A DNA stretch of 64,000 nucleotides from Candidatus Sulfidibacterium hydrothermale (GTDB lineage Bacteria; Bacteroidota; Bacteroidia; Bacteroidales; F082), in assembly GCF_020149915.1 (NCBI RefSeq), contig NZ_CP083760.1, positions 3,100,001-3,164,000 of the forward strand. The letters are read 5' to 3'. Positions 36,284 to 45,847 of this stretch are shown here, piece after piece. The notes under the pieces were generated by a model, which did not search any database, had not been told where the DNA came from, and saw only the letters and a list, made by a program, of their open reading frames with translations. Position numbers and translations under genes: made by a program. Position 1 is the stretch's first letter. Every line of letters starts with the position of its first letter.

Positions 36284-37519
36284 TTATTCATCACGTAACG
36301 CTTCAATGGGTTTTATGGAAGCCGCTTTTTTGGCCGGAATAAATCCGGCAATGGCTCCGGCAATGACCAGCAAAACCATCGCTGAAATGGCAATGGAAAG
36401 GTTGGCTTCCGGATGCCGGAAGAAGTCAGACGGCGGCAGATACTTATTTACCAGTTCCAGCAACCCTACACCGGCCATCAGGCCAATATATCCGGCCAAA
36501 CTGGTAATTACCACCGACTCCATTAAAATAAGTCCTACGATAGATGCAGGAGTAGCACCCAGCGCTTTCCGGATACCGATTTCTTTGGTTCGTTCTTTTA
36601 CTACAATCATCATAATATTGCTCACCCCCACAATACCGGCAATAATGGTTCCGATACCGATTATCCAGATAAACAACCGGATTCCGGCAAACAGGTTCAT
36701 AAACTTTTCATATTGTTCCAAGGTATTCGAAATTCGAATGGCTCTTTGGTCAGAAGGGGAAAAATGATGCGCTTTGGCAAATTGCATCCGGAGTTCTTTT
36801 TCGATGGTTTTGGTTTGACGCAGTGAAGCGTCGCCAACGGTCAACGAAATCATTCCCAGCCGGTTTCCACCATTAAAAATACGTTGTGCTGTGGTTACGG
36901 GGATATAGGCTTTCCGCATTTCACCGTTGCCGCCGGCATCTTTAAAAACGCCAATCACTTTAAACGGAATATTGCCTACCTCCACATATTTTCCCAGCGG
37001 AGAAATCCCGTGCCGGAAAAGATCTTTTCGTACCACATCACCAATGACAATCACTTTACTGAAGTGACTTATATCAAGCGGATTAATAAATCGTCCCATG
37101 GTGATTTCGGTATTTTCGATGTATCTGTTTCCCGGATGCACAGCCCGGATGTCGTAAGAACCCGACCAGGTTTTGTAACTGACATTTTTGTTTCCCACAT
37201 AAAAACGACCCGAAATGTGATCGATATGCGGATCCACCTTTTTTGTCCGGGTATAATCTGCATTGGTAAATTGTATCCTGCGCCCGGCATTGGTTCCTTT
37301 ATAAGGTTTGGAGGTCAGTCCCTGAAAAATCCACAAACTATTGGTAGCTTCATCGGCAAACTGATGTTGCACGCCGTTTTGCAATCCGCGTCCCGAACCC
37401 AGCAAAATAATCAGCATAAAAATGCCCCAGGCCACACTAAAACCCGTTAAAAAAGTACGTAACTTATTCTTGCTAATCGTACTGAAGATTTCCTGCCACT
37501 TGTCACGGTCAAATATCAT
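36284..37519 (-). CDS. MacB-type ABC permease, first copy in operon
   Basis: This 411-residue permease has the same architecture as its paralogue: a membrane helix near residues 20-42, a MacB_PCD domain, three C-terminal helices, a KERTKEIGIRKALGA loop and a KPIEALRDE end. Its start overlaps the ATPase stop by 4 bases, so the two are probably translationally coupled. A two-permease set with one ATPase is common in Bacteroidota export operons. The cargo is unknown. Confidence 0.9.
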   Translation of the reverse strand: MIFDRDKWQEIFSTISKNKLRTFLTGFSVAWGIFMLIILLGSGRGLQNGVQHQFADEATNSLWIFQGLTSKPYKGTNAGRRIQFTNADYTRTKKVDPHIDHISGRFYVGNKNVSYKTWSGSYDIRAVHPGNRYIENTEITMGRFINPLDISHFSKVIVIGDVVRKDLFRHGISPLGKYVEVGNIPFKVIGVFKDAGGNGEMRKAYIPVTTAQRIFNGGNRLGMISLTVGDASLRQTKTIEKELRMQFAKAHHFSPSDQRAIRISNTLEQYEKFMNLFAGIRLFIWIIGIGTIIAGIVGVSNIMMIVVKERTKEIGIRKALGATPASIVGLILMESVVITSLAGYIGLMAGVGLLELVNKYLPPSDFFRHPEANLSIAISAMVLLVIAGAIAGFIPAKKAASIKPIEALRDE

Positions 37520-38247
37520 AAGGCCAAGGCTTCTTCTTCCACAAGGTTTTCAAAAACTTTTTGTTTCGACTCACTGCTGTTGGCATCATTTTCAATACGA
37601 CCGTCTTTCAGGTGGATAATCCGGTCGGTTTTTTCGGCAATGTCCTGCTCATGAGTAACAATAATCATGGTGATTCCTTCGCGGTTGATCTGTCGCAACA
37701 AATCCATCACTTCCATAGAAGTTTTCGAATCGAGCGCACCGGTAGGCTCATCGGCCAAAATCACTTTGGGTTGGGTAATCAACGCACGGGCAATGGCCAG
37801 CCGCTGCTTTTGTCCGCCGGAAAGTTCGCTGGGCATGTGTTCAGCCCACGGACCCAACCCCATTTTCTCTAAATATTCTAAAGCCAACTGGTTACGCTTT
37901 TTTCTGGGAACTTTCTGGTAATAAAGAGGTAAAGCCACATTTTCCATGGCATTTTTAAAGGGGATCAGGTTAAACGACTGAAAAACAAACCCCAACATTC
38001 TGTTTCTGTAAAAAGCGGCTTTTTTTTCGTTGAGATTCTCCATCAGGGTTTTATCCAGAAAATATTTTCCTTCGTCATAACTGTCAAGAATGCCGAGAAT
38101 ATTCAATAAAGTAGACTTGCCGGAACCGGAAGACCCCATGATAGAAACCAGTTCACCTTTTTCGATATGCAGATTAATTCCTTTTAAAACATGGAGTTTG
38201 TTTTTCCCCATCCGGTAACTTTTATGAATATTTTCGAGACGTATCAT
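37516..38247 (-). CDS. MacB/LolD-type ABC transporter ATPase
   Basis: This 243-residue ATPase has Walker A GSSGSGKS near residue 36, a Q-loop, signature LSGGQKQR, Walker B VILADEPTGALD and an H-loop histidine in IIVTHEQD. It is the first gene of the ATPase-permease-permease-adaptor operon and powers it. The roughly 20 residues after the usual MacB ATPase core are charged and unremarkable. No -7 box matching TAnnTTTG is evident in the 230-base upstream gap. Confidence 0.93.
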   Translation of the reverse strand: MIRLENIHKSYRMGKNKLHVLKGINLHIEKGELVSIMGSSGSGKSTLLNILGILDSYDEGKYFLDKTLMENLNEKKAAFYRNRMLGFVFQSFNLIPFKNAMENVALPLYYQKVPRKKRNQLALEYLEKMGLGPWAEHMPSELSGGQKQRLAIARALITQPKVILADEPTGALDSKTSMEVMDLLRQINREGITMIIVTHEQDIAEKTDRIIHLKDGRIENDANSSESKQKVFENLVEEEALAL

Positions 38248-38478: not shown

Positions 38479-40284
38479 ATGAAAAAACAGGCTGTCTCAC
38501 CGGAAAGATTTTTTCAAGACCAACTCGCGATTTACGAAAAACAAAGCCGGCAAATACAAAAACAAATACGAAAGACTTCTGCCTTTCGTATTCTTTCTTT
38601 TCTTGCCACGATAACCGGAATATATCTGGCCGCATCGTACACGTCCGGTGTGGTAATAGCCGTATCGCTCACCGGTTTTTCTGTTTTTGGTTTTTTTGTT
38701 TACCGGCACATCCGGCTTTTCCAAAAGAAAAAATTAACGGACAAACTTTTAAAAATAAACCGAACTGAATGGCAGTTACTACATCTTGACACTTCAGGGC
38801 AACCCGATGGAACGGTTTTTCAGGATGCAGCACATCCCTTTGCTGCTGATCTGGATGTTTTCGGACAACGTTCTTTATACCAGTTACTTCATCGTTGTGC
38901 TACCCGTCCGGGGAGCCAGCTGCTGGCCCACACGCTTTTGTATCCATTACAACAACCCGGAGAAATTATTCGCCGGCAAAAAGCCATTGCCGAATTATCA
39001 GAAAAACCGTTGTGGCGCCAGGCCTTTCGGGCGGCCGGACCAGATGAAGAAAACGAAAGCAACAGCGTAACTGGTCTTTACCGCTGGGCAACCCACGAAA
39101 CACACTTTGACCGGCCTTTTCTCAGAGCCGCCATAGTCATTACTCCGCTGGCCGGTTTTTCCATTCTTTTTCTCACCCTTGCCGGGAGTCTTCCCCCCAT
39201 TATTCTTCTCCTGTTTTTACTCTGGCCTTTCTCCATCCTGGGTCCCAATACATCAGCGATTAATCGCGCCTACGATCTGCTTGGAAGAAAAACATCGCTA
39301 TTGCAACAATATGCAAAACTTTTCGAGAAGCTCGAAAATGAATCCTTCCGGTCCGAAATCATGCAACAAGCCACCCAAACCCTAACCCAGGGAAAACAAT
39401 CGGCTTATGCCGCCGTGAAAAAACTATCGGATATCACAAAAGCTTTCGATTACCGGCTTAATTTTCTCACCGGTTTTTTCCTGAATTCCTTTTTCCTGTG
39501 GGATCTTTGGCAGAGCATCCGGGTTGAACGGTGGAAAAAACAATACAGCTCATCCCTTCAGGAATGGTTTAACACCCTGGCACAGGTAGATATGCTGTGT
39601 TCTTTGGCAGGATTTGCATTTCAACACCCCGAAGCCGTTTTTCCCCGGCCGGTTAATTCAAACTTTCAATGGGCCGGTGAGGCATTAAAACATCCGTTTA
39701 TTCCTGCTGAGAAATGTGTGGGAAATCCGGTAGATATTACCGGTGAGGGGAAATTCCTGATTATCACCGGAGCCAACATGGCCGGAAAAAGTACCTATTT
39801 ACGAACGGCAGGCATCAATCTGCTGCTGGCGATGACCGGTGCTCCCGTTTTGGCCGACAAACTGGATTTTACTCCTATACAACTGTTTACCGGCATCAAA
39901 ACAACCGATTCCTTACAAGATGGAGAGTCTTATTTCTTTGCCGAACTCAAACGGCTGAAAGAAATCATTGTCCGGCTGGAAAAAGGAGAACGGATGTTTA
40001 TCATTTTAGATGAAATTCTGCGCGGAACCAATTCAAAAGACAAACAAAAAGGTTCCAAAGCCCTGCTCCGGCAGCTCATCCGGCTAAAAGCTTCCGGAAT
40101 GATTGCCACCCATGACCTGGCTCTGGGAAAACTGGCTGATGAATTCCCTCAAAACATTGTCAACAAACGATTTGAAGTAGAAATAAAAGATAACCAGCTC
40201 CAGTTTGATTATTTATTAAAAGACGGAGTAGCCGAAAACATGAACGCTACCTTTTTAATGAAAAAAATGGGAATTACCCTCTGA
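38479..40284 (+). CDS. Membrane-anchored MutS-like ATPase
   Basis: This 601-residue protein has a MutS-family ATPase domain at the C-terminus: Walker A GANMAGKST near residue 431, then a Walker B segment (MFIILDEILRGTNS) and an ATHDLALG segment. The N-terminal part has no mismatch-recognition domain. It carries hydrophobic segments at about 36-53, 57-75, 216-255 and 327-345, so it is probably an inner-membrane protein. A partial MutS lever/clamp helix region (about 150-420) connects the two. No Smr nuclease domain is present, unlike MutS2. The function is unknown. ATP-driven clamp behaviour at the membrane is an inference from the fold. Confidence 0.8.
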   Translation: MKKQAVSPERFFQDQLAIYEKQSRQIQKQIRKTSAFRILSFLATITGIYLAASYTSGVVIAVSLTGFSVFGFFVYRHIRLFQKKKLTDKLLKINRTEWQLLHLDTSGQPDGTVFQDAAHPFAADLDVFGQRSLYQLLHRCATRPGSQLLAHTLLYPLQQPGEIIRRQKAIAELSEKPLWRQAFRAAGPDEENESNSVTGLYRWATHETHFDRPFLRAAIVITPLAGFSILFLTLAGSLPPIILLLFLLWPFSILGPNTSAINRAYDLLGRKTSLLQQYAKLFEKLENESFRSEIMQQATQTLTQGKQSAYAAVKKLSDITKAFDYRLNFLTGFFLNSFFLWDLWQSIRVERWKKQYSSSLQEWFNTLAQVDMLCSLAGFAFQHPEAVFPRPVNSNFQWAGEALKHPFIPAEKCVGNPVDITGEGKFLIITGANMAGKSTYLRTAGINLLLAMTGAPVLADKLDFTPIQLFTGIKTTDSLQDGESYFFAELKRLKEIIVRLEKGERMFIILDEILRGTNSKDKQKGSKALLRQLIRLKASGMIATHDLALGKLADEFPQNIVNKRFEVEIKDNQLQFDYLLKDGVAENMNATFLMKKMGITL

Positions 40285-43216: not shown

Positions 43217-45847
43217 TCAATAAAAAATAACCCGGGTTTTCGGATGTTTCTCCTTGAAATTATCCACTTTCTTTTTTCTGAGATAAGTGTGGTCACACCG
43301 TACCAGCGTAAGATGCGGCAACGCCATAATGTATTTAAGTGTACTCACCCGCGTGTTGTTCATTATCAGTTCTTGCAAACGGGTAAGCCCCGAAAGAGGT
43401 TTCAGGTTTTTCACTTTCGTCCCCGAAATATTCAGCTTCTGCAACTGATGCAGCCCCTGTATGGGAGACAGATCTTCCACCGACGTGTTTTCGAGCTTTA
43501 GCACCTCCAATTGTTTTAATTCGACCAATGGCGAAATATCCCACAGCGGACCATTGGTAATGGACAGGATCCGGAGGGTTTTTATTTCAGCAAGCGGCGA
43601 AATATCCGTAACCGAAGTATTATCCAAACGTAAATTTTTCAACCGTTTAAAAAGCGTAAGCGGTTCCACATTATCAATATCAAGATGATTGGTTACATTA
43701 ATCTTTTCCAGGTTAATCAACTGTTGTATCTGTCCGGGAGTTGGCGGATTATTCATATCCAGCTGCTGCTCAAATGCCTGCTGCCAGGGTTTCTCCAGGT
43801 TATTCCACCAGATTTTCAACCGGTCGCTTTGAAAAATCACCAAACATTGGGGAAGATGTTTCTGTAAAGCCAATACATTTTTCTCGTTTACCTTGCTATG
43901 ATCAGCCAAAATCAGCTGTAATCGCTGACTTCCTGCCAAAGGCATCAAATCGGACACAGCTGTATTTTCAATATTCAGTTTTTGCAGATTGGTCAAATTT
44001 TTCAAGGGCTCCAGCGAAGTAACACGGGTGTAACTAACATCCAGGTTTTGCAGGGTACGCAACGCAGCAAGCGGTTGCAGGCTGCTCACCGAAGTTCCCG
44101 ATACGTTTAACGATTTTAAACGGATAAGCATTACCAACGGCTGCAGACTATGAATCTTTGAATTGCCATGCAAATCCAGTTTTTTTATAAGCAATAATTT
44201 ATGGAGTTGTTCCTTGGTAATGGGAGGCTGCAAACCGGTGTGAGAAATAAAAATATTTTTCCAGCTGTCGGAAAGTGATGCCCACCATTTTTCCAGTTTC
44301 TGCGAATTGAAAATCACCTGGCAATGGGGATTTTTTTTATGAAAAGCCGTCGCCTGCTGCAAATGAACCCCCGAGTTATCACAATAAATGTATTTCAGGG
44401 ATTTCAACCCGGCCAAAGGCATCAAGTCGGAAACACGGGTTCCGTTAATTTGCAAAATGGTCAGGGAATCGAGTGTACTCAACGGATGCAAATCGATGAT
44501 CAACGTGCTGTCAAGATTCAGGGTTTGCAAAGCCCGCATGGAAGACAAAGGCGAGAAATCTTTAACATGACTTCTTGCCAGCGAAAGGGCCGTTAACCGG
44601 GTTAACGAAGCCAGCGAATCGATTTTTTGTGCCGGAACAGCATTCAGTTCAAGAGAACGCAAATGAACCAGGCTTTGGAAATTAGGGATAGAATCCACCC
44701 GGGTATGAGAAAGATTAACAGCCTCCAGGTTTCTTAGTCCGGCCAGCACTTTAATCTTTTTTACCGGCGTATAAGCTGCATCCAGCTCCCGGAGTGATGA
44801 AATGTAACGCAAGGGTTCCAGCGATTCCACCGGACATCCGGTAATATCCAGATATTCTAACCGGCTTAAGGTACGCAATGGAGTCAAATCATCAATCAGG
44901 GTATGGGCACAATTTAATGTGCGCAAATTATCCATTTCGCTCAATGGCTGCAGGTTTTCAATATCCAGGTTACCGGAAATATTCACTTCGCGGGCTTCCC
45001 GCAAATGACGAACCAGCTGGATCATTAATCCGGTATTCTTCATCGGGAGGGTATCCGGCACCCAAACCACCGAATCGCTCACCACCAGCAAACTGTCTTC
45101 TTCCGGTTGCTGAAGACGTGCCGAATCGGCATTCAGGCTATCCGCATCATAAACCTTTTTTATTTCAACAACAATGTTCTTGTCGGAAAAAGAGAGAAGG
45201 TGATTCAGCGGGATGCTGTCGTAAACCCGAATGGCTTTCCCAAAATAATTTTTCCAGGCCGGAGAAAGGGTATTCCACCAATACTCTATTTCGGCATCAT
45301 CCGTCGGTTTATTGGTATAAATACTGGCTATTTTCAGGCTGTTTTGTTCCGGGTCAAGATTAATCTCCACATAACGCAACTGATTATTCTCCACCGTATC
45401 GCCATTCACCGTAATCCCTTTCAACGTCCGGTTTAAAGTAACCTTAAAATAAATCTGCCCGTCAGGAGCCTGTAACGGCTGAATGTTGGTGATGTGAAAA
45501 GTAAAATGCACTTTCTTAAAGAAAAACACCACGTCTTTTAAATAAGCCTGAACATCTTTATGGATAGGAACAACCCGGTGGGCATCCAAATCGCCTTCGA
45601 TCTGGACTTTGTCATTCTGAAAAATTTTCAGATAGCTGTTATTAATAATGATCTCTTTTTCGGCCGGTGGATTTTCCGGATTTCCCAGAAAATTCAACGT
45701 TCCCTCCAAATATTCCATCATTTGCCGGCATTCGGTTTTATAGCCGGCTATTTCTTTGGGCGTAAGTTTTACCGCCGTTTTCTGGGCCTGAACCCCCGGT
45801 GCCAAGAGAAGAAAAATGAAAAACAGAAAATTTATTTTGTTGAACAT
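43217..45847 (-). CDS. Secreted leucine-rich repeat protein with three WW-module/LRR blocks
   Basis: This 876-residue protein has a signal peptide (residues 1-22, ending PGVQAQ). A beta-rich N-terminal domain (about 25-185) comes first. Three recurring modules follow: a WWxxL-(4)-WKxxF motif (190-203, 521-533, 679-692), a string of 22-23-residue leucine-rich repeats of the L-L-N-S/T-V-L-PL type, and a PxxxVIF cap (511-513, 670-672, 873-875). Block lengths are roughly 320, 158 and 194 residues. The SDS22-like repeats suggest protein binding. Its start overlaps the end of the upstream secreted protein gene by 16 bases, so the pair is probably translated together. No enzyme domain is visible. 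Confidence 0.85.
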   Translation of the reverse strand: MFNKINFLFFIFLLLAPGVQAQKTAVKLTPKEIAGYKTECRQMMEYLEGTLNFLGNPENPPAEKEIIINNSYLKIFQNDKVQIEGDLDAHRVVPIHKDVQAYLKDVVFFFKKVHFTFHITNIQPLQAPDGQIYFKVTLNRTLKGITVNGDTVENNQLRYVEINLDPEQNSLKIASIYTNKPTDDAEIEYWWNTLSPAWKNYFGKAIRVYDSIPLNHLLSFSDKNIVVEIKKVYDADSLNADSARLQQPEEDSLLVVSDSVVWVPDTLPMKNTGLMIQLVRHLREAREVNISGNLDIENLQPLSEMDNLRTLNCAHTLIDDLTPLRTLSRLEYLDITGCPVESLEPLRYISSLRELDAAYTPVKKIKVLAGLRNLEAVNLSHTRVDSIPNFQSLVHLRSLELNAVPAQKIDSLASLTRLTALSLARSHVKDFSPLSSMRALQTLNLDSTLIIDLHPLSTLDSLTILQINGTRVSDLMPLAGLKSLKYIYCDNSGVHLQQATAFHKKNPHCQVIFNSQKLEKWWASLSDSWKNIFISHTGLQPPITKEQLHKLLLIKKLDLHGNSKIHSLQPLVMLIRLKSLNVSGTSVSSLQPLAALRTLQNLDVSYTRVTSLEPLKNLTNLQKLNIENTAVSDLMPLAGSQRLQLILADHSKVNEKNVLALQKHLPQCLVIFQSDRLKIWWNNLEKPWQQAFEQQLDMNNPPTPGQIQQLINLEKINVTNHLDIDNVEPLTLFKRLKNLRLDNTSVTDISPLAEIKTLRILSITNGPLWDISPLVELKQLEVLKLENTSVEDLSPIQGLHQLQKLNISGTKVKNLKPLSGLTRLQELIMNNTRVSTLKYIMALPHLTLVRCDHTYLRKKKVDNFKEKHPKTRVIFY

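Follow-up and report, generated by a model that had tools for sequence, protein, structure and literature searches.

What would a MutS-type ATPase do in a membrane? The question is raised by a gene (P0001, Table 1) in the window, i.e., the whole stretch of 64,000 nucleotides of the genome of Candidatus Sulfidibacterium hydrothermale that was analyzed. Counted from the ATG at 38479 to the stop at 40284, the gene encodes 601 aa, and there is an in-frame TTG ten codons 5' of this ATG. Upstream, on the opposite strand, lies a gene of an ABC-type ATPase (37516-38247) and beyond it two permease-like genes (named by eye). Downstream, an ORF of 731 aa starts around 40380 in the same direction. Farther along the window, the minus strand encodes at 43217-45847 a protein of 876 aa in which leucine-rich repeats are abundant by eye.

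Table 1. Features of P0001, with positions in the window and residues of the protein. TM, predicted transmembrane segment; AF2, AlphaFold2 model; KR, Lys/Arg; DE, Asp/Glu.
Feature	Residues	Positions	Strand	Basis
Gene of the predicted membrane MutS-type ATPase (P0001)	1-601	38479..40284, stop codon included	+	ORF list; similar-length homologues of like architecture
TM1	38-52	38590..38634	+	KR 0.07 and DE 0.02 per row in 132 homologues; within AF2 helix 8-51
TM2, with near-invariant F70	58-74	38650..38700	+	Charge counts; conservation; AF2 helix 56-101
Cytosolic stalk (predicted)	75-105	38701..38793	+	Lys/Arg-rich membrane end; AF2 helix 56-101
MutS domain III (core), first part	118-212	38830..39114	+	Pfam MutS_III 130-184; MutS fold match from residue 112-118
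TM3, inside domain III	217-234	39127..39180	+	Charge-free run; AF2 helix 213-234
TM4, followed by Lys/Arg in the family	241-257	39199..39249	+	Charge counts; AF2 helix 240-269
Lever tip (putative), hydrophobic, conserved N328 and N336	328-343	39460..39507	+	AF2 helices 309-327, 329-339, 341-382; spacing; conservation
MutS domain V ATPase	427-587	39757..40239	+	Pfam MutS_V, E=2e-28, 100.1 bits (cut-off 30.2)
Walker A, TGANMAGKST	430-439	39766..39795	+	Sequence; conservation
ESYFFAE	483-489	39925..39945	+	Profile alignment to the MutS1 ESTF element; S484, F486, E489 invariant (31 rows)
Walker B, FIILDE	507-512	39997..40014	+	Sequence; D511 and E512 invariant
C-terminal end	561-601	40159..40281	+	MutS_V match reaches profile position 160 of 188

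The host genome is a single contig of 3.27 Mb with six matches to PF00488: MutS1, three copies of MutS2, P0001, and one relative of 541 aa (L006) belonging to a second membrane type, hereafter type B. The MutS2 copies stand in tandem at G000:C1 2631000-2646000 (L204 3820-8604 and onward) with a period of 2391 bp and exact identity across 4785 bp at this period. One copy is complete (822 aa), and the other two are truncated at the 5' end (frames of 722 aa). The array is due either to a tandem duplication that happened recently or to an artefact of the assembly.

We used Pfam to establish which MutS domains P0001 retains. Only MutS_III and MutS_V scored above their cut-offs, and the latter places the protein in the MutS superfamily. 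The best stretch of MutS_III covers residues 130-184 (1.5e-13). Domain III is split in P0001. MutS_I, MutS_II, MutS_IV, and Smr were not detected in it by Pfam. With the same library, the MutS1 of this genome (869 aa, clamp at residues 427-517) showed all of domains I to V, and the MutS2 of this genome showed both Smr and MSSS. Hence, the absences in P0001 are informative, and they bear out the original prediction that it has neither a mismatch-recognition domain nor a Smr domain. Among the aligned homologues, MutS_V was matched in 66 of 66 and MutS_III in 52 of 66 (E<=0.01), and MutS_I, II, IV, and Smr were absent from the 25 listed of the 27 matched families (by list order, the other two match at most one member each). 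The NCBIfam equivalog models of MutS1, MutS2, and KamC matched the ATPase half of P0001 with scores far below their cut-offs: 115.2 vs 641.7 bits for TIGR01070 and 145.9 vs 480 for NF003810 (MutS1), 77.5 vs 400 for TIGR01069 (MutS2), and 95.9 vs 300 for NF052383 (KamC). The label "DNA mismatch repair protein" on such genes is probably wrong.

The motor part of the protein is well conserved. Walker A and the DE of Walker B are intact, as originally noted, both in the sequence and across homologues: in an alignment of 31 rows the invariant residues are T430, G431, N433, M434, G436, K437, T439, D477, S484, F486, E489, D511, E512, G516, T517, N518, H545, and D546. In a profile comparison, the motor segments align with their MutS1 counterparts, among them the ESTF element, which serves the site of the partner subunit in MutS. 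Given these invariant residues and this alignment, the ATPase motor of P0001 looks active. Conservation amounts to 2.44 bits per column in the ATPase, 2.59 in the C-terminal end, 1.86 in the lever tip, and 1.91 in the lever that follows. Since little of the protein is left beyond the end of the MutS_V match, the last MutS helices seem to be missing. In MutS, these helices help pairing. In five type B proteins that we scanned, the match extends to profile positions 182-187, i.e., their C-terminal end is fuller. The matches of P0001 in PHROGs are of unknown function and fall in the C-terminal part with the ATPase. A role in a defence system was considered and rejected, because the PADLOC matches are centred on the P-loop only, both in P0001 (mad8, E=3.4e-4, residues 415-450) and in four type B proteins (best mad8, E=1.2e-7).

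To place these domains in a structure, we analyzed an AlphaFold2 model of P0001 made with 66 sequences (pLDDT 94.2, pTM 0.92). It has helices at residues 8-51, 56-101, 213-234, 240-269, 309-327, 329-339, and 341-382. According to Foldseek and VIA-align, the part from residues 112-118 to 592-601 sits on the MutS III+V fold, and the helical hairpins of the model are added before and within domain III. The 50 VIA-align rows listed have Z of 24-27 with 298-420 residues aligned and rmsd of 2.6-6.2 Å, mostly 3-4. P0001 matches E. coli MutS across about residues 270-783. One of the MutS matches is 7oto_B (Z 26.5, rmsd 3.7, 409 aligned, chain 270-783). Four MutS2 entries are among these 50 rows, with Z of 24.0-25.8, the top one being 9a5o_B (rmsd 4.2, 399 aligned). 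Residues 1-111 are not covered by any of the VIA-align matches listed.

The clamp domain IV would be expected at about the lever tip and helix 329-339. This placement is indirect because the profile alignment to MutS1 is unreliable in this stretch. In MutS1, 316 aa separate a domain III glycine from Walker A (G299 to T615), and 91 of these are the clamp. The distance is 285 aa in P0001 (G145 to T430) and has a median of 284 (259-311) in the 95 of the 132 homologues where the pattern was found. A spacing of 285 instead of 316 would fit the loss of the clamp together with the gain of a hairpin of ~50 residues. The original prediction had proposed a MutS clamp coupled to the membrane. The membrane part of this proposal is supported, but the clamp part is not, since domain IV is undetected and the spacing is too short for it. 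The missing clamp itself had gone unremarked there.

Strongly hydrophobic segments had been predicted in the N-terminal half, and all four indeed lie within residues 38-257. They form two hairpins (38-74 and 217-257) whose positions are kept across 132 distinct homologues of ~600 aa and which have almost no charge. This set excludes three incomplete sequences (L077, L101, L138), one of type B (L159), and identical copies. The Kyte-Doolittle profile of P0001 (19 residues, threshold 1.6) gives 2 windows, vs a mean of 1.1 and a maximum of 4 in 1000 shuffled sequences, which is not significant. Moreover, soluble controls also have such windows: one in 11 of 21 MutS1 frames (maximum 1.79) and one in 4 of 7 MutS2 frames (maximum 2.42, in two frames upstream of the truncated copies). 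The hydropathy of P0001 alone being weak, the case for the membrane rests on the homologues. Among these, the N-terminal hairpin has two windows above 1.6 in 114 of 132 and one in the other 18, and the middle hairpin has two in 74, one in 55, and none in 3. In two of the latter (L057, L058) the segment is present just outside the preset range, leaving L043 as the sole one of the 132 without a strong middle segment.

The longest charge-free runs in P0001 span 46 aa (217-262) and 38 aa (38-75). Among 5000 shuffles of the sequence, the longest run reached at least 46 in 11 and the second-longest at least 38 in 1. The longest run is 17-20 aa in the MutS1 controls (21 frames; 10 of 31 loci had been lost to the motif pattern, and the first 60 residues were removed from the remaining frames), 18-24 aa in MutS2 (7 frames, three of which are copies of one gene), and 17-22 aa in six short relatives of ~440 aa. 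In the 132 homologues, its median is 38 and its minimum 19, as a single charge, e.g., in a short outer loop, may interrupt a run. Nine of nine further homologues from the same genus have a charge-free run at both places relative to Walker A (among their three longest), the N-terminal one being split or merely 18-24 residues long in 4 of the 9. Soluble MutS1 and MutS2 lack such long runs, and burial of the segments in a soluble fold is not indicated.

The distribution of charges around the segments has a positive-inside bias. Per row of the 132 homologues, Lys/Arg amount to 0.07 in TM1, 0.04 in TM2, 0.17 in TM3, and 0.39 in TM4, and Asp/Glu to 0.02, 0.03, 0.01, and 0.04, respectively. The predicted cytosolic flanks are rich in Lys/Arg vs Asp/Glu (4.14/0.68 at 22-37, 4.05/1.44 at 75-90, 2.33/0.71 at 203-216, and 3.09/1.33 at 258-272), and the short outer loops have no Lys/Arg excess (0.42/0.48 at 53-57 and 0.14/0.45 at 235-240). 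Directly before TM1, at its cytosolic edge, stands the near-invariant R37 (weighted frequency 0.99). With the conserved positions, the near-zero charge, this bias, the AlphaFold2 model, and the tree grouping described below, the predicted membrane insertion of P0001 is well supported. The predicted topology has both ends and the ATPase in the cytosol and two hairpins crossing the membrane.

We then asked how P0001 relates to MutS1 and MutS2, using an unrooted tree of the ATPase region (~290 columns) with 58 rows, 56 of them different, chosen among the fetched loci: 27 of type A, i.e., the type of P0001, 9 of type B, 6 short, 9 MutS1, and 7 MutS2 (L194 and L199 gave no row because of a pattern mismatch). 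One group each was recovered for type A (97/86), type B (98/94), MutS1, MutS2, and the short proteins. Types A and B unite at 95/91, apart from both MutS1 and MutS2, and the union of these two with the short group has 100/97. In a first tree, without MutS2, the short group had stood beside MutS1, a join flagged as long-branch. P0001 thus belongs to a membrane MutS group by its tree position and by the TM3-TM4 hairpin in domain III. The sister group (~440 aa; L062, L063, L065, L200-L202) lacks hydrophobic hairpins, with no window above 1.6 in 5 of its 6 members and one of 1.83 in the sixth, and it lies outside the ~600-aa type.

Type B (e.g., WP_000106330.1, WP_237340363.1, L006) shares this hairpin and the tree group with P0001 and differs by its length of 536-587 aa, by zero to two N-terminal TM segments (at least one in 7 of 8 proteins examined), and by the fuller MutS_V end. 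The host's own copy (L006, G000:C1 1394139-1397693, 539 aa) has the TM3-TM4 hairpin and no strong N-terminal TM segment. The AlphaFold2 model of another type B protein, L159, made with 31 sequences, is weaker than that of P0001 (pLDDT 77.1, <50 at residues 79-107; pTM 0.72) and its two long helical hairpins (4-36/39-95 and 193-216/218-264) occupy places that match those in P0001. Type B occurs in the host genome, other Bacteroidota, and Bacillota, and also on staphylococcal plasmids. Most of the staphylococcal and Ruminococcus records name it MutS or MutS family DNA mismatch repair protein. Hydropathy and tree assign two staphylococcal proteins with the latter name (L160, L161) to the type B membrane MutS. 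The L161 gene sits between an ABC-F gene and tsaD.

Relatives of P0001 are frequent in the phylum. Matches at E<=1e-30 were found in 93 of 296 sampled genomes, and the ~600-residue type (frames of ~590 aa or more) is present, by row count, in 90 of them, whereas G035, G082, and G091 have shorter relatives alone. All 12 genomes searched in the genus match, the host included (G297 and G306 in pieces only), as do 16 of 20 when the genomes of relatives, genus included, are considered. A scan of GTDB species matched at least 594 stretches, of which at least 592 encode a relative; among the best 80 of these, the titles name Bacteroidota and, in one case, Chlorobi. Of 76 plasmid records with any match, 5 have one that covers 80% or more of the protein, and all five bear names of Bacteroidota genera. 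Two viral contigs from IMG/VR (L157, L158) carry type A genes near the contig end, which are possibly host flanks of proviruses.

What could such a protein do? We favour, with moderate confidence, an integral inner-membrane ATPase of the MutS superfamily that would act as an ATP-driven switch on a membrane partner and not as a mismatch sensor. P0001 keeps the domain V ATPase and the lever-bearing core of domain III; domain I, the connector II, and the DNA clamp IV are undetected. The TM1-TM2 hairpin would stand at the N terminus on a stalk of ~27 residues and the TM3-TM4 hairpin within domain III. From this computed architecture, together with the conservation, the predicted topology, and the lineage, we infer a dimer, its activity, its coupling, and a partner. 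As the residues serving the partner's site are retained, two subunits would pair through the ATPase domains in the manner of MutS. The pair would close and reopen with the binding and hydrolysis of ATP, a movement that core and levers would transmit to the hairpins in the membrane and to the lever tip, which is conserved. The movement may thereby reach a partner in or at the inner membrane, and the protein would be a switch or a mechanical coupler of the envelope. The missing last part of MutS_V counts against this reading, as it bears on the putative dimer. So do the lack of a partner gene recurring across the phylum, the YjbR neighbours in some Flavobacteriia (see below), the missing strong middle hairpin of L043, and the window above 1.6 in 11 of 21 soluble MutS1 frames.

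The main rival is a membrane-tethered factor for processing chromosomal, plasmid, or incoming DNA, e.g., in the control of recombination. We regard it as unlikely. It would fit the MutS ancestry and the presence of type B on staphylococcal plasmids, but domains I, II, and IV, which make DNA contacts in MutS, are undetected, and the P0001 protein itself has no positive sign of DNA as its partner. Across 115 loci, some of them duplicates (e.g., L067 and L086 are the same region), clustering of neighbours gave no partner gene common across the phylum, and the largest cluster spans 17 loci. These 17 (e.g., L118, L111, L133) have a YjbR gene upstream of the membrane MutS gene and in the same orientation, at 1-115 bp in 13 of them. 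YjbR is a family described as DNA-binding, which would allow a link with DNA in some Flavobacteriia, and a YdjM-family gene lies downstream in 7 of the 115 loci. However, the YjbR link is limited to a subset, all 16 named loci of the 17 being from genera or families of Flavobacteriia, and P0001 has no YjbR neighbour within the window. A RuvC-like gene (named by eye) in the same Flavobacteriia region is ~2.5 kb or more away from the membrane MutS gene.

A membrane version of the role of MutS2, acting on stalled ribosomes near the translocon, seems very unlikely to us. MutS2 rescues stalled, collided ribosomes, according to an excerpt of PMC12292046. MutS2 structures (e.g., 9a5o_B, 7vuf_A) share the core and ATPase fold of P0001 and fit it about equally to those of MutS1 (Z 24-26), and one staphylococcal record has an ABC-F gene two genes away from that of type B. 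Yet P0001 has neither of the Smr and MSSS domains present in the genome's own MutS2, the tree separates its type from MutS2, and no ribosome-related neighbour recurs among the 115 loci.

We give hardly any credence to a transporter in which a MutS ATPase would substitute for an ABC ATPase. A probably dimeric ATPase fused to membrane helices would indeed resemble the outline of an ABC exporter. However, ABC_tran scores under its cut-off in P0001 (14.7 vs 25 bits), and the four TM helices per subunit are among the least conserved parts of the protein (1.33, 1.27, 1.14, and 1.09 bits per column for TM1 to TM4). The strongly fixed residues there are F70 of TM2 and R37, which borders TM1. Polar residues stay below 60% throughout the TM segments of the homologue alignment. 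This is the pattern expected from an anchor or a coupler rather than from a substrate channel. Finally, a cytosolic protein with the segments buried in a soluble fold is barely credible: the modest hydropathy of P0001, the windows above 1.6 in soluble MutS1, and the weak middle segment of L043 would allow it, but the conserved positions, the positive-inside bias, charge-free runs of 46 and 38 aa vs 17-24 in MutS1 and MutS2, the long helices outside the MutS-matching part of the model, and the near absence of hydrophobic windows in the ~440-aa sister group argue against it.

The inner-membrane switch that we favour can be set beside the known MutS proteins. With MutS1, P0001 has in common the domain III core, the domain V ATPase, the Walker motifs, the ESxF element, and the region of the ATH switch histidine; it differs by the undetected domains I, II, and IV and by its two TM hairpins. 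A MutS-type ATPase has already been named for a role outside DNA: KamC, the lysine 5,6-aminomutase reactivase ATPase, a name given to the model and not a test. Among 198 genomes of the phylum, no KamC member reached E<=1e-80, the control genomes being equally blank. MutS8, reportedly described by Ogata et al. in 2011, might overlap with the membrane MutS family. Two Cardinium proteins are assigned to MutS8 in an excerpt of PMC5698495, and the classification of MutS is treated in excerpts of PMC12292046 and PMC8438181. In an excerpt of PMC4630920, a staphylococcal locus tag is the reference gene for qPCR, and MutS goes unmentioned. Among the openly licensed papers that our searches listed, none describes a membrane or transmembrane MutS.

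More tentatively, as a serious possibility, we propose that a widespread branch of the MutS superfamily left DNA entirely: it may have lost the DNA-gripping domains, gained membrane hairpins in the core that bears the levers, and become an ATP-driven mechanical coupler of the inner membrane in Bacteroidota and Bacillota. MutS proteins are textbook DNA-repair machines, and a common lineage that kept the motor and exchanged the DNA-binding parts for membrane helices would, if this is true, show it in a different job. The annotation of many genomes, including those of Bacteroides and staphylococci, would have to be corrected. The family would then parallel the membrane-coupled ABC ATPases, yet it is annotated as mismatch repair, and it would offer a testable case of the same motor with a new substrate.
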